This document shows positions 6,324-12,638 of a DNA stretch of 64,000 nt, piece after piece. A model generated the notes under the pieces. That model was not told the DNA's origin. It was given only the letters and a program-made list of their open reading frames with translations, and did no database searches. The DNA is from Acaryochloris sp. CCMEE 5410 (GTDB taxonomy: Bacteria; Cyanobacteriota; Cyanobacteriia; Thermosynechococcales; Thermosynechococcaceae), in contig NZ_AFEJ02000001.1 of assembly GCF_000238775.2 (NCBI RefSeq), positions 3,658,001-3,722,000 on the forward strand, given 5' to 3'. How positions within the stretch are numbered: position 1 is the first letter of the stretch; each line of letters opens with the position of its first letter. The position numbers and the translations under genes are program-made.

Positions 6324-6740
6324 CTAAAGATTGAGCCATTTTTCAAACTTTCCCAACATCTTCCGTAGCGACTTCATCTCGACCAATTTATATGCTTTGG
6401 CCACAGAAACCACCCGTCTTTCCCGCTCATGATCCTCTTGCCACTCTCGATGCAGCTGGGTGACCACCAAGGGAAACACTTGCACCGTACAGGTACTCCC
6501 CCATTTTTGATGAGCATAGGTGCCTAAGGGTTCAGTCGCAATCAAGCCTTCAATCCCCGCTTCTTCCCAGGCTTCTTTCGCTGCAGAATCCCAAGCCGTC
6601 AGATCCGGTTCAATTTCTCCTTTAGGGATAATCCACCGACTTCGCTTACGGGATGTAATTAAGATCACCTTCAAACCATCCGGCTGAATCAGGTAAGGCA
6701 AGGCAGCAGAGTGCTGATAGCGCCCCTCGACTGGTGTCAT
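6324..6740 (-). CDS. Nudix hydrolase
   Basis: Hydrolyses a nucleoside diphosphate linked to another moiety; the substrate is not readable. The Nudix box runs from GEIEPD through AKEAWEEAGI, with the REUXEEXG core present as KEAWEEAG. The Lys/Arg-rich approach (SRKRSRWIIPKGE) resembles the diphosphoinositol-polyphosphate phosphohydrolase or Ap4A subgroup. It has 138 residues, normal for a single-domain Nudix protein. It lies downstream of the signalling operon on the same strand but 78 bp after it, so membership in that operon is doubtful. Confidence 0.9.
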   Translation of the reverse strand: MTPVEGRYQHSAALPYLIQPDGLKVILITSRKRSRWIIPKGEIEPDLTAWDSAAKEAWEEAGIEGLIATEPLGTYAHQKWGSTCTVQVFPLVVTQLHREWQEDHERERRVVSVAKAYKLVEMKSLRKMLGKFEKWLNL

Positions 6741-6818: not shown

Positions 6819-8564
6819 TCACCAATCTTTGAGACCGTTCGTCATCTTTTCCTGCAGCAGCGCCACCGCCATTTGTCCATCGACCGGTTTCGAGAACAAA
6901 TGACCTTGCGCTTCTTGGCAGCCCATATCTAGCAGAAAGCGCCGCTGTACCGGAGTTTCAACGCCTTCAGCCGTCACACTGAGCCCCAAATCATGGGCTA
7001 ACTCAATGATAGAGCGCACTAGATCGAGATTCTCCACATCCATCCGTTTAATAAAAGACCGATCAATCTTTAACGTATCCACCGGTAATTGCTGCAAATA
7101 TTGCAAAGATGCATAGCCTGTCCCAAAATCATCGATACAGAGGCTAACCCCCATATTTTTGAGCTGATGAAGTGTATCGATCGCCGCTTGGTCTCGACTA
7201 AACAACACACTCTCCGTAATTTCAATCATGAGCTGCTGCGGAGAAATGCGGGTTTCCAGCAACACTTGTCGGACTTGCGACACTAAATCGGGTTGATCGA
7301 ATTGCTTCGCCGAAAAATTGACGCTCACCGCAAGAGGTTCTTCCGTAAATCGGCGCCACTGCTGAATGCGAAAACAGGCCTCTTTCAACATCCACTGATC
7401 GATCTCAAAAATCAGCCCCGTTTCTTCAGCAATTGGAATGAACTCCATGGGAGACACCATGCCCAGTTTGGGATGCATCCATCGAACTAAGGCTTCAAAT
7501 CCAATAATTCTTTGATCGGCTAAACAAACAATCGGCTGAAAAAATAAATTGAGTTCCTGCTCGCGCAGCGCTCGCTTCAGATCATTTTCAAGCTGCAGCA
7601 GTCGTACAGCTCGTGCATGCATGGTGGGATCAAACACCACGTAATTGGCCCGCCCCAACCCTTTGGCATAACTGACCGCTGTATTGGCATCCCGGAGTAA
7701 ATCTTCAGCTCGGTCATACTCCATCAGGGTCAAAGCAATCCCCACACTAGCCGTTATGTACAATTCTTGGCCACTCAACCGAAATGGGGTTTGGAACTCT
7801 GCCGAAATTTGGTTGGCAGCCAAGATTGCAGTACTCGTCGCATCAATTTCATCTAACAGAATGATGAACTCATCACCACTCAAACGGGCAAAAATATCAA
7901 ATTCATCCAAGCAATTTTTTAAGCGCCAAGCAATGGCGATCAGCAGTTGATCCCCAGCCAAACGGCCAAAACTATCATTAATACTTTGAAAACGGTCAAT
8001 ATTGACGATCAAAATGGCAAAGTGATAGCTCTTTTTGCGCTTAAACCGTTCAAAGGCATGGGCAAGCTGAATCAGAAAATAGGTTTGATTGGGCAGCCCC
8101 GTCAAGGCATCATAAAACGTCGTTTTGAGAATGCTTTCGCTCGTTTGTTTCCGCTCTTCAATAAAATCTAATGTGCTTTCCCGCGCTTTTTGAATAAAGG
8201 AGAGGAGTTCAATATATTCCCCCTCTGAGGCTTTAATCAGGAGGATTTTCTGAGATCCTAAATTGAGGGCTGCCGCCTCCAAATGAATCTCTTGGTCTCG
8301 ATGATCGGTTTCACACCACATGCCCGACTTATACTGACCCGGCTGATTGTCATGCCAAAACTCCATCGCATCCACCAGAAAGTTAGCCAGAAAAGGCAAT
8401 TTTCTTTCGATCCAAGCCACATCTAAGGTGAGTTGGACCTGGGGATAGAGTTTAGTGAACCAGGATGGCGTTGTTCCTACAATCGTTAAGGAATGCTCAT
8501 TAACCCGCTCTAAAATCAAAATATCTAAAGCAGAGAGTACATTTGCAGGGAGCGATACCGTCAT
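6819..8564 (-). CDS. GGDEF-EAL c-di-GMP turnover protein
   Basis: Makes and/or degrades cyclic di-GMP. An N-terminal sensor-like region (residues 1-140, PAS-like, unassigned) leads into GGDEF with an active-type SGDEF at 229-233. The upstream inhibitory RxxD has lost its Arg (DEFD), so product inhibition may be absent. The EAL domain starts with FEALVRW (EAL at 357-359) and keeps the catalytic set: NFSAKQF, IEITES, DDFGTGYASL, LKIDRSF, TAEGVET and CQEAQGHLF. Both activities therefore look intact. Its ATG overlaps the stop of the cyclase homologue by 4 bp (ATGA), which implies translational coupling and places it as the probable output of the operon. Confidence 0.92.
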   Translation of the reverse strand: MTVSLPANVLSALDILILERVNEHSLTIVGTTPSWFTKLYPQVQLTLDVAWIERKLPFLANFLVDAMEFWHDNQPGQYKSGMWCETDHRDQEIHLEAAALNLGSQKILLIKASEGEYIELLSFIQKARESTLDFIEERKQTSESILKTTFYDALTGLPNQTYFLIQLAHAFERFKRKKSYHFAILIVNIDRFQSINDSFGRLAGDQLLIAIAWRLKNCLDEFDIFARLSGDEFIILLDEIDATSTAILAANQISAEFQTPFRLSGQELYITASVGIALTLMEYDRAEDLLRDANTAVSYAKGLGRANYVVFDPTMHARAVRLLQLENDLKRALREQELNLFFQPIVCLADQRIIGFEALVRWMHPKLGMVSPMEFIPIAEETGLIFEIDQWMLKEACFRIQQWRRFTEEPLAVSVNFSAKQFDQPDLVSQVRQVLLETRISPQQLMIEITESVLFSRDQAAIDTLHQLKNMGVSLCIDDFGTGYASLQYLQQLPVDTLKIDRSFIKRMDVENLDLVRSIIELAHDLGLSVTAEGVETPVQRRFLLDMGCQEAQGHLFSKPVDGQMAVALLQEKMTNGLKDW

Positions 8565-9562
8565 TGCATTGGGTGATAAGAATATAAGCTCGGGCTGTTC
8601 GTTAGAGAATGTTCAGAATGAGACATCGGTCGAAAAGACTTCTGCCTTTTATCTAGCCCATCAAAGGTCAGTTTGTCGATGATCAAGGTCCCACCTTCAG
8701 AATTCTCATTTAAATTCACCGCCATATCCATCGGCTGGCCCATCACCGTTAAGGTTTTGCCGAATCCCACCTGTAGGAGTCCGATAGTAACGATTCCCGT
8801 TGTCGCCACTAGGGCGCATTGAGCCGTTGGGCCAATGGGGGGCTGACGTTCCTCAAATAGTTGGAGAATACGTACACTCGCATCTATCGCTTGCATCGAG
8901 GGGCTACGAGTGGAGGGCAATACGCCAAATACCGCCACAATAGAGTTGCCAATACTTTGATGAATCAAACCGCCTTCATCCAAGATGGAAGGGGAAATGG
9001 CGGATAGGTATGCATCTAAGATTTTAAGGGGATTAGAGGTAACCGTGTTATCGTCTAGGCCCTCGATGTTACAACATTTTACGACTAAAATACTGAGGGA
9101 TTTTTGCTCGCCGGCCGGCCGAATATCGAGAAAGTTTTCTGCCACAATCTCTGATTGCATCAAATGCCCGATGGAGCGAGCCTGTTTCCGCCGCAGCAGA
9201 CTGAGATCATTCACTTTTTGTTGAATCAGAACATGCTCTTCATTTTCAGAGGTGGCATCAAAGAGAATGACCCAATCATGCTGGTCTTCTACAAAAAGAT
9301 GCACTTCGGCAATAATATCTTGGTCTAGCTGCAGGAAGGGAATGTGCATCGCCGCTTCTTGCAAAGGCAATAAACCCGCTAAGAAGAAAATTTGCTCATC
9401 AATCGACTGGTGTAGCTTTAAAGGAGCTAAACCATACCGCTCACAAGCCCCACCAAAAGCCAGTAAATCACCTGTTTTAGTGACTTGTAAATAGGCCGGA
9501 AAGCGATCTCGAACGATTGTAGAACAAAGGAATGTCACAATCGGTTGTGGGAGATTTAACAT
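8561..9562 (-). CDS. Class III nucleotidyl cyclase homologue, probably inactive
   Basis: The C-terminal half has the class III adenylate/guanylate cyclase pattern (SILVVKCCNIEGL, SIGNSIVAVFG, TTGIVTIGLL, TVMGQPMDMAVNL), but both positions that normally hold the two metal-binding aspartates are asparagine (N165 and N206 by my count). Catalysis is therefore unlikely; a role as a nucleotide-binding or protein-interaction domain is inferred. Residues 1-150 form an unassigned, PAS-like region. The gene starts 6 bp after the GTPase stop and overlaps the GGDEF-EAL start, so it sits between the GTPase and the c-di-GMP enzyme. It could still be a diverged active enzyme; only an assay would tell. Confidence 0.75.
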   Translation of the reverse strand: MLNLPQPIVTFLCSTIVRDRFPAYLQVTKTGDLLAFGGACERYGLAPLKLHQSIDEQIFFLAGLLPLQEAAMHIPFLQLDQDIIAEVHLFVEDQHDWVILFDATSENEEHVLIQQKVNDLSLLRRKQARSIGHLMQSEIVAENFLDIRPAGEQKSLSILVVKCCNIEGLDDNTVTSNPLKILDAYLSAISPSILDEGGLIHQSIGNSIVAVFGVLPSTRSPSMQAIDASVRILQLFEERQPPIGPTAQCALVATTGIVTIGLLQVGFGKTLTVMGQPMDMAVNLNENSEGGTLIIDKLTFDGLDKRQKSFRPMSHSEHSLTNSPSLYSYHPMQ

Positions 9563-9568
9563 GGGTAA

Positions 9569-10060
9569 CTAAATCATCATTTGCGCCAATTTTATAAAGC
9601 ACTCTTCTACCCCTAATCCAGTCCTTGCACTCCCAAGACAGTAAGTCCATTGCCGTTGGGATAATTCTTCGAGATCGTCCTCTCCGATTTCCCAATCTTG
9701 GCTTAGATCATACTTATTGAAAATTGTAATAAATGGCACTTTGCCAATAGTGTCTTCCACTTTAGTTTGTAATTGGAAGACTGTTCCTAATGTATCTCGT
9801 CGAGTACCATCTACCACCAAAATATAGGCGGCTGATCCTCGCAAATACGACATTCGAATTTTTTGAAATTCATCTTCACCATGAATATCCCATAGAATTA
9901 AATTTAATTCTTGCCCAGCAACCGCCACACTTTTTTTATCAATTTTGACGCCAACTGTCGTTTGATATTTATCAGAATAAATACCTTGAACATATCGAGC
10001 GACAAGGCTCGTTTTCCCAGTCGCAAATGCACCGATCATACAAATCTTTTTCTGGAGCAT
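9569..10060 (-). CDS. Ras/Rab-like small GTPase
   Basis: A 163-residue single-domain GTPase of the Ras superfamily (prokaryotic Rab/MglA-like branch). Visible are the P-loop GAFATGKTS (10-18), a switch I Thr in YQTTVGVK, switch II WDIHGEDEF, NKYD for guanine recognition and SAR as the G5 element. The normal DTAGQE of switch II reads DIHGED, so the catalytic Gln is Glu; low intrinsic hydrolysis or a need for a GAP is inferred. It lies 6 bp downstream of the roadblock/OmpA gene. Roadblock proteins commonly regulate such GTPases, which supports a functional pair at the inner membrane. Confidence 0.88.
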   Translation of the reverse strand: MLQKKICMIGAFATGKTSLVARYVQGIYSDKYQTTVGVKIDKKSVAVAGQELNLILWDIHGEDEFQKIRMSYLRGSAAYILVVDGTRRDTLGTVFQLQTKVEDTIGKVPFITIFNKYDLSQDWEIGEDDLEELSQRQWTYCLGSARTGLGVEECFIKLAQMMI

Positions 10061-10066
10061 AAGCTA

Positions 10067-11821
10067 TCAATCAGCGTCCGATGGTTGAACAAAAATAACT
10101 TTAAAAGTAACCTTGCGATTGGATTTAGAGATTTTAGCTGAATCTAACTTTTCTACTGCAGGAGGCTCAACACTCACTACCTGAAAAAGGTTTTTATCAA
10201 TGCCCTGTTTGGATAGCAGGGAAATAATCGCCTTAGCACGAGTTTCCCGGACATAGAGATTGATCAACTCAGATCCACTAGTATCGGTATGCCCTTCAAC
10301 GAGAACAGCAACGGTTTGGTTGATGGTTTTAGCTGTTTTAGCCAGTTTTTTAATGTCTTCAGCCACGGTTTTAAGCTTGACATCTTGTTGAGGGACCAAC
10401 TGAGCATTTTGGGTAAAGAAGATGGTGTGAGCCTCAAGTTTGGCCTTAATGTCGGCAAGAGCACCTGCTTCGACAGGCACAATTTGTTGAGTGTTGAATT
10501 GGGTCACATTAGGCAATCGCAAGGCTAGCTGTTTTGCTTCCGTGATCCAGGATTGCGGAGCAGTCCCTGAGGCTTGAATCGCCCCATTAGCATCAACTTT
10601 CAGCTCAACTGTTTCTGGGGGCTGCAACAGCGATATCACTCTGGATTCAATAAATTCAGTATCGAAGGATAGATAAGGTTCCCAACTAAAAGCAACCTTG
10701 TTTGGATCTAGATCTGTCTTTGATATCAAATCAGTGGGCTTAGACGCCAGGGGATCTTTCAGGCCAGATATCACATATTTACCGTTCTGTTTTTTGGTTT
10801 GCAAGACGACGATACCGGATTCCCGATTCAGTTGATCGACAAAGCTTTGAACTTGGTTTCGCTCATAGTTAGACAAAAAGCCCCAGACCCCTAATCCTAA
10901 AATGAGAATTCCAGCTGCTCCGCCAATCCATTTCAACGGAGAAGAGCGCTTCTTTTTCGTTTGATATTGGGACTGTAAACATTCTTCTAGATAAGGCTGG
11001 CTCGGTTCAAAGGCACTGCTATCCCCCTGAAATTCGTGAAGCTGACGCTCTTGGACTAGGTGAATTCGCTCCAGAGCATTTTCCATCATTTGCCGCAGTT
11101 TGCCAGGTGGGTTACCCCGTATAACACAAGCAATAATGGCTTGGGGACCTTCATTCACCCAAATGGTTAATTCTCCGACTTGCAAACTCCCTAAGGCTTC
11201 GTCACTGACGCTAAATGAGTCGCGAACAAAATCTTGAATCGCGGTGAACATGGCAGAGACTAAATCTGCATCCTGAGCAGCAGCCGTTGCGGCGGCAAGA
11301 TGCTGTAAAACTAAGCCTGAGGATTTATGGATAAGAAAAACTTGTTCGACCTGATAGACAAGGGTACGCAACAACAAGACTTCAGCAAAAGATTTCCCTG
11401 TACGCCAGGCTTCAAAGCGCCAACTTAAACTTTGAGGAGAGAGGCTATGTTCTAGACTCTGGTTCAGGGAGTCGGTTAGATTCTGGATTGCCGCTGCGAT
11501 CGCTTTCCGTATCGCTGGTCCCATAATCGGGAACAGGGCTTCAGAGAGAATATTTTGATCGGTATTCACAGACGATTTAATCGCATGCTCCACCGTTGGC
11601 ATCACAGCTTCAGATACAGTCTCATCACTCGTTTTAAGGGTGAGTTGGATCGCTTCGGGTAAAACCCGACTCACGTCTTCCGATCGCAACTGGGCATTCT
11701 CGAATCGTCCTTTCAGATCTGGCCCAATTAGCAAACTTCGCAGCTCATTCAATTCGTTAGCTTGACCAGGTTCTTCTGGATAAGCAGCATCCCGATTGGC
11801 ATTAGTAGGTAAATTACTCAT
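10067..11821 (-). CDS. Roadblock-like / TM / BON / OmpA envelope protein
   Basis: About 584 residues. Residues 1-150 are helical. Residues about 152-255 (HKSSGLVLQHL, VSAMFTAIQDFVRDSF, ACVIRGNPPGKLR) read as a roadblock/LC7-like fold. There is one membrane helix at about 298-317 (WIGGAAGILILGLGVWGFL). The periplasmic part has a BON-like unit (VDANGAIQASGTAP) and an OmpA C-terminal domain with the peptidoglycan-contact residues in EGHTDTSGSE and ETRAKAI. The inferred topology is cytosol-helix-periplasm, linking the cell wall to the GTPase encoded next. The ATG at 11821 is chosen because the upstream extension to 11983 lacks coding character, but no clear ribosome site decides this. Confidence 0.82.
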   Translation of the reverse strand: MSNLPTNANRDAAYPEEPGQANELNELRSLLIGPDLKGRFENAQLRSEDVSRVLPEAIQLTLKTSDETVSEAVMPTVEHAIKSSVNTDQNILSEALFPIMGPAIRKAIAAAIQNLTDSLNQSLEHSLSPQSLSWRFEAWRTGKSFAEVLLLRTLVYQVEQVFLIHKSSGLVLQHLAAATAAAQDADLVSAMFTAIQDFVRDSFSVSDEALGSLQVGELTIWVNEGPQAIIACVIRGNPPGKLRQMMENALERIHLVQERQLHEFQGDSSAFEPSQPYLEECLQSQYQTKKKRSSPLKWIGGAAGILILGLGVWGFLSNYERNQVQSFVDQLNRESGIVVLQTKKQNGKYVISGLKDPLASKPTDLISKTDLDPNKVAFSWEPYLSFDTEFIESRVISLLQPPETVELKVDANGAIQASGTAPQSWITEAKQLALRLPNVTQFNTQQIVPVEAGALADIKAKLEAHTIFFTQNAQLVPQQDVKLKTVAEDIKKLAKTAKTINQTVAVLVEGHTDTSGSELINLYVRETRAKAIISLLSKQGIDKNLFQVVSVEPPAVEKLDSAKISKSNRKVTFKVIFVQPSDAD

Positions 11822-12008
11822 TGAATATAGAACTGCAAAGATTAGATGGGCTGACAGAGCATTCGCATCAGATCTGCCACCATTATTGATATTGCTATAG
11901 TAAAGGCCACAACGATAAACAACTTGAAGATTTATTGCATAGCATCCAGGCTCGCCTGCTAATACGTCCGACAAACCCCGCAAGATGCACGGACCATCAT
12001 CCTATAAC

Positions 12009-12638
12009 CTATGAATTTGAGCGAATATTCAGGGCTAATTGGCTAAAGAGATCCGCTAATTGATCACGGTCTTGAGCATCAACCGACTGAAGAGACTGAA
12101 CTTCACGTTCTAATAAAGCTTTCAGTTCAGCATGCCTATGGTTAAAGTCTGTCCCCAAAGAGGTGACTTTTTCCTCCAAAGTAGACAGGATACTCAGTCG
12201 TTGCCGCTCAACTTCTTCACCCAGTTCTCTAACCTGACCATTGACCGTTGATATCCCACTTTGATAAGTCGCTTCTAGATCCGATACAGACGTAGTTTGA
12301 GACGCATGATTGGATTGCACAATCTGGGCCAAGGTTTGCAAATCATTGCGAATCGCTGTTTCTAGGGCTTGCAGCTGTTGATCCATTTGTTCTCGGATGT
12401 CAGCACATTCTTGATTCAGTCGATTTTCGAGCTGGTCAAGCTTTTGTTCCTGGCTATGTACCTGCTGTCCAAATAACAAATCCCTAATCTTATTGAGGGT
12501 ATTCAGATCAACCTCTTCATTGGGAGAAGCATTGACCAATACAGCCTCATTTGCATGCTGATCACCCTCCACTGGCTGCTCAGAAGATGATGTTGCTAAA
12601 GCTGAAGTTATCTGATCATTAGAGATGGTCATGGCCAC
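12009..12638 (-). CDS. Coiled-coil protein of signalling operon
   Basis: 209 residues with no recognised domain. Residues about 45-190 are rich in Glu/Gln/Leu heptads (QEQKLDQLENRLNQE, QALETAIRNDLQTLAQ), predicting a long coiled coil; the N terminus is Ser/Glu-rich and probably disordered. There is no signal peptide or membrane segment, so it is cytosolic. It is first in a same-strand series with the roadblock/OmpA, GTPase, cyclase-like and GGDEF-EAL genes, though the gap to the next start is about 187 bp. A scaffold role is a guess. A second ATG at 12632 is equally possible. Confidence 0.7.
   Translation of the reverse strand: MAMTISNDQITSALATSSSEQPVEGDQHANEAVLVNASPNEEVDLNTLNKIRDLLFGQQVHSQEQKLDQLENRLNQECADIREQMDQQLQALETAIRNDLQTLAQIVQSNHASQTTSVSDLEATYQSGISTVNGQVRELGEEVERQRLSILSTLEEKVTSLGTDFNHRHAELKALLEREVQSLQSVDAQDRDQLADLFSQLALNIRSNS

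Follow-up and report, generated by a model that had tools for sequence, protein, structure and literature searches.

Five genes of the cyanobacterium Acaryochloris sp. CCMEE 5410, at positions 6819-12638 of a 64,000-nucleotide stretch of contig NZ_AFEJ02000001.1 (positions 3,658,001 to 3,722,000; the whole stretch is hereafter the window), form what is, judged by sequence, a Group 1 Rup module of the kind predicted in 2014, Rup being the name for prokaryotic GTPases of the Ras superfamily whose function is unknown (Wuichet and Søgaard-Andersen, 2014; PMC4316618). The best explanation of the set, to which we give about an even chance (roughly 0.5), is that it is a signalling module in which a wall-tethered membrane protein with a longin-type domain would act on the GTPase, the GTPase on output proteins, and these on cyclic di-GMP (c-di-GMP). 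New relative to the published description are the predicted longin-type fold, the doubling of a glutamine-bearing effector domain and a series of degenerate cyclases.

The five open reading frames, on the minus strand, share one strand, as the original prediction, made from the sequence alone, had claimed, and the spacing that it gave for the last four genes (gaps of 6 bp and 6 bp, then a 4-bp overlap) was confirmed. From first to last they are:

12009-12638, minus strand: coiled-coil-type protein, 209 amino acids (open reading frame; homology, composition)
10067-11821, minus strand: membrane protein, 584 amino acids, with N-terminal helices, a predicted longin-type domain, a transmembrane helix, a BON-like region and an OmpA domain
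9569-10060, minus strand: Rup (Ras/Rab-like) GTPase, 163 amino acids (Pfam Ras)
8561-9562, minus strand: PAS-like domain followed by a class III pseudo-cyclase, 333 amino acids
6819-8564, minus strand: N-terminal effector domain, GGDEF (here SGDEF) and EAL, 581 amino acids (Pfam, motifs)

Translation of the membrane protein, called the OmpA protein below, most likely starts at the ATG at 11821, an alternative TTG at 11983 giving a longer protein. Because the coiled-coil gene lies 187 bp upstream of this ATG, we infer, and do not observe, its co-transcription with the other four. The gene and its position stood as first described; its coiled-coil nature is judged by composition and homology only, the protein having only sub-threshold matches in Pfam. 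The Pfam domains of the cluster (Ras, 2.6e-29; OmpA, 3.4e-7; GGDEF, 8.2e-41; EAL, 1.5e-77) bear out the Ras-like GTPase and the GGDEF-EAL enzyme of the original prediction.

As described in the accessible part of the 2014 survey, Group 1 Rup genes have three kinds of neighbour: one codes for a coiled coil, one for an unknown domain, often joined to a transmembrane segment and an OmpA domain, and one for an output protein, typically a diguanylate cyclase/phosphodiesterase fusion or a histidine kinase, in either case with an invariant glutamine in the N-terminal part; the GTPases themselves lack the G3 glutamine, are close to the eukaryotic Rab/Ran/Ras/Rho proteins and are in no case coupled to MglB, and no Rup had been experimentally characterised as of that paper (PMC4316618). 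The window matches this description in its coiled coil, its OmpA protein, its GTPase without the G3 glutamine and its cyclase/phosphodiesterase fusion, the N-terminal glutamine of which (Gln125) we liken by description. It differs in two respects: the unknown domain, without a known fold in that account, is predicted here to be longin-type, and to the four conserved genes the window adds a fifth, coding for a glutamine-bearing PAS-like domain and a dead cyclase. The assertion that no described system has such a gene set was thus wrong, the same set being that of Group 1 Rup in the accessible text (PMC4316618). Its core idea was supported: a domain of the peptidoglycan-binding type, a cytosolic one of the longin/roadblock kind, a Ras-like GTPase and the turnover of c-di-GMP come together in a single conserved module. 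In the accessible part of one further paper Rup is mentioned once, as a classification (PMC13015309).

Conservation of the gene set

Among 194 sampled genomes of the cyanobacterial class, searched at cut-offs of E <= 1e-8 for the OmpA protein and E <= 1e-15 for the GTPase, each was found in 38 genomes and both together in 37, where about 7 would be expected if they were independent, so the association is not one of chance; only 39 genomes had either. Full or partial relatives of the pseudo-cyclase adjoin the same two genes in six other genomes of this sample (G188, G168, G010, G070, G093 and G107), the last of which keeps only the N-terminal domain, as a 132-amino-acid gene. The window's own genome measures 8.09 Mb, and the nearest named relatives of its set are in two Acaryochloris metagenome-assembled genomes (MAGs; L095 and L152).

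When one genome per species was scanned for relatives of the cytosolic part of the OmpA protein, at least 560 stretches were confirmed, and neighbourhoods were counted in the best 80 of these; since the 80 are the most window-like, the counts do not describe all Rup systems. They come from Cyanobacteria, Acidobacteria, Gammaproteobacteria, Desulfosarcina, Verrucomicrobiales, Dehalococcoidia, Latescibacterota, Rhodothermales and others, and many are MAG contigs that may be misbinned; the isolate Thiolinea disciformis (L165) has the OmpA protein, the GTPase and an output of the window's last type side by side. Counting as a neighbour any same-strand relative within 4 kb in a six-frame search, with profiles built partly from the same loci, we found the coiled coil at 78 of the 80 loci, the GTPase at 75, and the effector domains that front the window's last two proteins, here termed effEAL (GGDEF-EAL enzyme) and effP (pseudo-cyclase), at 64 and 51, respectively. 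All four occur at 46 loci, at least one effector domain at 69, and the coiled coil, GTPase and any effector together at 68. The gene order therefore recurs in many bacterial phyla and is not unique to this genome.

A NUDIX gene (window 6324-6740) follows the cluster on the same strand, 78 bp downstream, and the set stands between a DUF6816 gene before it and a NUDIX gene after it in the window, in L075 (from G188, a genome of the same genus) and in L095. The NUDIX gene is possibly part of the operon in the genus Acaryochloris.

A predicted longin-type domain in the membrane protein

The OmpA protein divides into four parts after its N-terminal helices:

10961-11359, minus strand: longin-type domain, residues 155-287, predicted ββαβββαα (AlphaFold2 model, VIA-align)
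10862-10930, minus strand: transmembrane helix (predicted), residues 298-320, preceded by KKKR (model, hydropathy)
10475-10819, minus strand: BON-like region, presumed periplasmic, residues 335-449 (Foldseek)
10085-10474, minus strand: OmpA peptidoglycan-binding-type domain, residues 450-579 (Pfam PF00691; VIA-align Z 14.1)

The AlphaFold2 model, built with 49 sequences, has a mean predicted local distance difference test score (pLDDT) of 77.7 and orders residues 157-282 as strand-strand-helix-strand-strand-strand-helix-helix. This ββαβββαα order is the canonical longin one; the roadblock fold, a circularly permuted relative, runs αββαββββα with an N-terminal helix ahead of the first strand (PMC6864590, accessible part). 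A helix does stand before the first strand of the model (residues 145-153), and no roadblock has a row among the 50 VIA-align rows shown. Eleven of these 50 fall on the longin part, and all are longin proteins or complexes that contain longins, among them Vamp7 (4afi; Z 13.1, 119 residues aligned, 2.4 Å), Sec22b (1ifq; Z 13.1, 121 residues, 2.6 Å), Ykt6 (Z 12.4, 121 residues, 2.6 Å), Fuzzy-Inturned with Rab23 (9rs9; Z 12.3, 124 residues, 2.9 Å), CPLANE-RSG1 (Z 12.1, 124 residues, 3.1 Å) and TRAPP (Z 12.1, 125 residues, 2.9 Å), the matched chain of which we take to be longin-type. The unknown domain of Group 1 Rup systems is thus predicted, from the model, to have a longin-type fold.

The original prediction had called this region roadblock-like. 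The structure prediction did return a roadblock-related fold, so that first reading was close; the related fold is supported, while a roadblock identity is the less likely one, given the topology and the longin rows. A putative regulator of the GTPase that looks more longin than roadblock makes the role of an activator, or guanine nucleotide exchange factor (GEF), at least as likely as that of an MglB-like GTPase-activating protein (GAP). Compared with L095, the longin part is 94% identical, the best-kept stretch measured (GTPase, 88%; periplasmic part, 71%). Domains of this kind in bacteria are not wholly new, as "Longin/Roadblock" is listed jointly as present in them in the accessible part of PMC4917890.

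The transmembrane helix appears as helix 296-333 of the model and as the hydropathy maximum (1.85, near residue 299), and since the soluble cyclase homologue peaks equally, hydropathy alone is indecisive. For the region beyond it, the proposed BON domain is supported by Foldseek rows to 2l26 (Rv0899; E 1e-7) and 7a2d (dual-BON DolP; E 2e-5), with a large overall root-mean-square deviation (rmsd), and the best 50 of 1216 Foldseek rows comprise a single BON entry beside proteins like OmpA, Pal, MotB and YfiB. The OmpA domain itself was as predicted, by both Pfam and VIA-align.

The Ras-like GTPase

In the window GTPase the G1, G4 and G5 motifs are intact, as in a small GTPase of the Ras superfamily, and Gly10, Gly15, Lys16, NKxD and SA are conserved in all 70 close GTPases. 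The G3 motif reads WDIHGE, with Glu62 (codon 9875-9877) at the position of the catalytic glutamine, and the close GTPases have glutamate there in 66 cases, alanine in 2, threonine in 1, aspartate in 1 and glutamine in none. The best sequence match in the PDB is Rab23 (4.2e-24), whose activator is Inturned-Fuzzy (PMC6864590, accessible part). The GTPase resembles Rab23 and its putative partner is predicted to have the longin-type fold of the Rab23 activator, a coincidence that is suggestive only, as similarity to Rab23 is not phylogeny. We liken the two pairings by resemblance and not by descent: each chain of the heterodimeric Inturned-Fuzzy exchange factor has three longins, and the complex serves cilia and planar polarity (PMC6864590, accessible part).

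A second Rup-like GTPase, 41% identical to that of the window, is encoded in the same genome (L094:7520-8002; G000:C1:47519-47995) among genes for a transposase-type helix-turn-helix protein, a beta-lactamase-fold protein and uroporphyrinogen decarboxylase; no partner of the OmpA/longin type was seen within the 16 kb examined there. The same-genus genome G188 also carries a second Rup-like GTPase.

A degenerate cyclase and a c-di-GMP enzyme

Both proteins downstream of the GTPase begin with a domain of about 135 residues, followed by a signalling enzyme or its remnant:

9158-9562, minus strand: PAS-like effector domain effP; Gln115 (codon 9218-9220) is invariant
8564-9112, minus strand: cyclase-fold domain, with K162, N206, D279 and N283 at the catalytic positions (alignment)
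8145-8564, minus strand: N-terminal effector domain effEAL; Gln125 (codon 8190-8192) is invariant

Alone, the cyclase homologue has no match in Pfam; its predicted fold (Z 19.1, 173 residues aligned, 3.2 Å) and a profile of 30 relatives, some of them less degenerate (1.6e-18), place it with the class III cyclases and uphold that part of the original prediction. The four aligned positions are presumably the two metal-binding aspartates and the transition-state asparagine/arginine pair of such a cyclase. Lysine 162 and Asn206 replace the metal aspartates that are seen in L145, and Asp279 and Asn283 the Asn/Arg pair of L131, L140 and L143. The losses form a series: the acidobacterial L145 has kept both aspartates and lost the pair, L131, L140 and L143 lack the first aspartate and retain the second together with the pair, and the window and its Acaryochloris relatives have lost all four. 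In 34 loci, mostly of Nostocales, the N-terminal domain remains on its own, as a gene of less than 150 amino acids, and 18 loci with an effEAL domain yielded no effP.

By alignment, then, the window protein lacks the residues of an active class III cyclase. With every metal and Asn/Arg position replaced, the earlier description of it as a nucleotide-binding pseudo-enzyme is unlikely. The ratio of nonsynonymous to synonymous substitution rates (dN/dS) of the cyclase part is about 0.12-0.16 against two relatives, a rough value as dS is saturated, and was not computable for several pairs, including a third cyclase relative. The pseudo-cyclase thus seems, from this comparison of sequences, to be under purifying selection, which together with the lost catalytic positions argues that it is kept for something other than catalysis. 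More probably, it works by means of the PAS-like domain at its N-terminus.

Each of the two effector domains has an invariant glutamine: Gln115 is conserved in 47 of 47 rows of effP and Gln125 in all 61 ungapped rows (of 62) of effEAL. When 29 outputs were aligned (the window protein, 26 of the 61 effEAL proteins and two of the effP type; 16% mean column identity), Gln125 was the sole invariant column; the enzymes behind it differ (HATPase_c in 19, EAL in 5, GGDEF in 5 and HD in 4, by Pfam). In the model of effP, strands and helices follow in PAS order and lead into a long helix, residues 104-135, that bears Gln115; from this strand order and from soluble guanylate cyclase rows (residues 1-333, large rmsd), effP is in our reading a PAS fold. 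The effEAL domain is putatively PAS-like as well. Compared by hhalign with the output N-termini of a divergent cyanobacterial group, a template of only six sequences, effP and effEAL give P values of 2e-4 and 1e-4 and probabilities of 45 and 56%, over most of the domain length and with glutamine on glutamine. One protein of a Chromatiaceae MAG (L156:11211-12698) holds both N-terminal effector domains and, by eye, an HD-type phosphodiesterase, a fusion suggesting that the two act jointly.

The EAL domain has the motifs EAL (357), NFSAKQF (416), ITES (449), DDFGTGYASL (478), LKIDRSF (498) and EGVET (533), whose N, E, DD, K and E positions we take to be those with functional roles in EAL phosphodiesterases; on these motifs it carries the phosphodiesterase signature. 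Where the signature of active diguanylate cyclases is GG(D/E)EF, the window protein reads SGDEF (residues 229-233). Lyngbya confervoides (G168; L109:12095-13855) shows the reverse, an intact GGDEF and a lost EAL signature, and the sign of the output may therefore differ between lineages. Among the outputs of the divergent cyanobacterial group are kinases and, as judged by eye, class III cyclases that retain the two metal aspartates (G142, G051, G098); at the divergent modules L085, L091 and L093 the output nearby looks, by eye, like an intact cyclase of class III and not like a kinase or an enzyme of c-di-GMP.

Discussion

We propose that the OmpA protein is anchored by its transmembrane helix and that its BON-OmpA part grips peptidoglycan. 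In the cytosol, its longin-type domain would partner with the coiled-coil protein and recruit the Rab-like GTPase. Complexes of longin-domain proteins load eukaryotic Rabs with GTP and, by analogy, the longin-type domain would probably act here as a GEF. The GTP-bound GTPase could then bind the PAS-like domains that front the pseudo-cyclase and the GGDEF-EAL enzyme, where the invariant glutamine, placed on a helix behind the PAS-like core, might complete GTP hydrolysis in trans or serve as a docking residue, and where the pseudo-cyclase may be a non-catalytic scaffold or a second docking arm. The output would be a change in c-di-GMP, probably breakdown, as no EAL motif is missing and the GGDEF signature reads SGDEF. 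In this scheme every interaction, the exchange role, the membrane topology, the signal and the direction of the c-di-GMP change are what we infer from the computed gene set, conservation, folds and residues.

The pairing of a bacterial small GTPase with a protein of the roadblock/longin kind recalls MglA and MglB. MglB is a roadblock protein without a transmembrane segment or an OmpA domain. MglA belongs to a family other than Rup (PMC4316618, accessible part). The outputs of MglA/MglB are polarity and motility. A gene set of membrane sensor, GTPase and signalling enzyme is also found in the actinobacterial conservons (CvnA-D), although these have an MglA-type GTPase, a separate MglB homologue (CvnB) and a histidine kinase (CvnA), and their description in the accessible part of the survey includes neither OmpA nor c-di-GMP enzymes (PMC4316618).

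Several observations weigh against the proposed longin-driven module. The model is uneven in confidence (pLDDT 55-68 at residues 181-210; predicted template modelling score 0.47). Two PDB profile searches returned no longin or roadblock family. In Pfam, 41 sequences of the domain gave Intu_longin_1 at 0.046, Robl_LC7 at 0.12 and Fuz_longin_1 at 0.2, for one member each, and were matched better by unrelated families (best 0.0021); for 49 full OmpA proteins, neither longin nor roadblock was among the best 25 of 47 families, and the longin models PF19031 and PF19036, run over the 194 genomes, matched none of the OmpA genes. The domain is therefore called a longin-type fold and not a member of the longin family. 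A roadblock assignment by sequence was rejected as well, as the domain, set against 12 cyanobacterial roadblocks (those left of 19 frames from 28 loci once 7 in the wrong frame or not matching had been removed), gave P 0.11, a value that also speaks against our reading, and Robl_LC7 nothing significant. Direct comparison of effP with effEAL fails (P 0.17, also with fewer sequences), so their kinship stands on the third profile that both match. Of 20 GTPases from 30 loci, mostly of the divergent cyanobacterial group, position 62 is Ser in 6, Glu in 4, His in 4, Gln in 2, Arg in 2, Lys in 1 and Cys in 1; being variable, with glutamine in 2 of 20, this group does not strictly obey the no-glutamine rule. 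Among the 80 loci, 11 have neither effector domain nearby and 5 have no GTPase, one of them (L157) at a contig end. Finally, no experiment on any Rup was found in the literature searched, outside which lay supplements and subscription papers, and the same literature yielded no paper in which a Rup system is assigned a longin or a roadblock domain.

Some related loci are recorded here in their own right. The best PF19031 row in the 194 genomes (Intu_longin_1, E 0.0073; G097:C1:1451838-1452095) lies inside a 757-amino-acid frame of a cyanobacterium that has no match to the window OmpA protein, and a weaker Intu_longin_1 match lies in a 760-amino-acid frame of G087. The divergent cyanobacterial GTPases with a variable residue at position 62 are at L053-L074. 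In Desulfosarcina alkanivorans (L166), the OmpA/longin-type and coiled-coil genes are present, and neither a GTPase nor an effector domain was found within 4 kb.

The GTPase could instead be controlled in other ways. First, the membrane protein could resemble MglB in function, as a GAP of the roadblock type: it would turn the GTPase off at the envelope, and strain on the wall would relieve it. Roadblock and longin are related folds, MglB serves as GEF/GAP for MglA (PMC10933270 and PMC11016934, accessible parts), and a helix of the domain (...SAM..A...) resembles, by eye, that of cyanobacterial roadblocks. However, the structural rows shown are longins that align as far as residues 281-290, through the last helix, the 12 cyanobacterial roadblocks are not significantly similar, and no Rup was coupled to MglB in the accessible part of the 2014 survey (PMC4316618); we consider this unlikely. 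Second, the longin-type domain could be a scaffold only, leaving the nucleotide state unchanged, with the N-terminal glutamine of the outputs as the GAP element, a role proposed for it in 2014 (PMC4316618, accessible part). The invariant glutamine in both effector domains and the absence of the G3 glutamine from the close GTPases would agree with such a division of labour. The model, however, puts Gln115 on the helix that follows the PAS-like core, a position that fits dimerisation or docking equally well, such a helix being the usual place of a signalling linker, and we doubt this second alternative too. Lastly, that separate wall, GTPase and c-di-GMP genes merely adjoin by chance, as the 187 bp before the OmpA protein and the varying output type might hint, is highly improbable and already refuted by the neighbourhood data, with an order that recurs over many phyla and both the OmpA protein and the GTPase in 37 of 39 genomes with either.

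A more general form of the proposed longin-driven module can be put forward tentatively, and we think it somewhat more likely to fail than to hold: the widespread Group 1 Rup GTPases may be switched by a peptidoglycan-anchored exchange factor with a longin domain, a bacterial version of the Rab-activating pairing used as a wall sensor, with c-di-GMP enzymes and kinases as outputs, each docking by way of a PAS-like domain that bears an invariant glutamine. If this were true, Rup GTPases would gain a testable regulator and output, and bacteria a route from the state of the wall to c-di-GMP through a G protein. It would also bear on whether the pairing of Rab with longin is older or wider than the line of eukaryotes and Asgard archaea.

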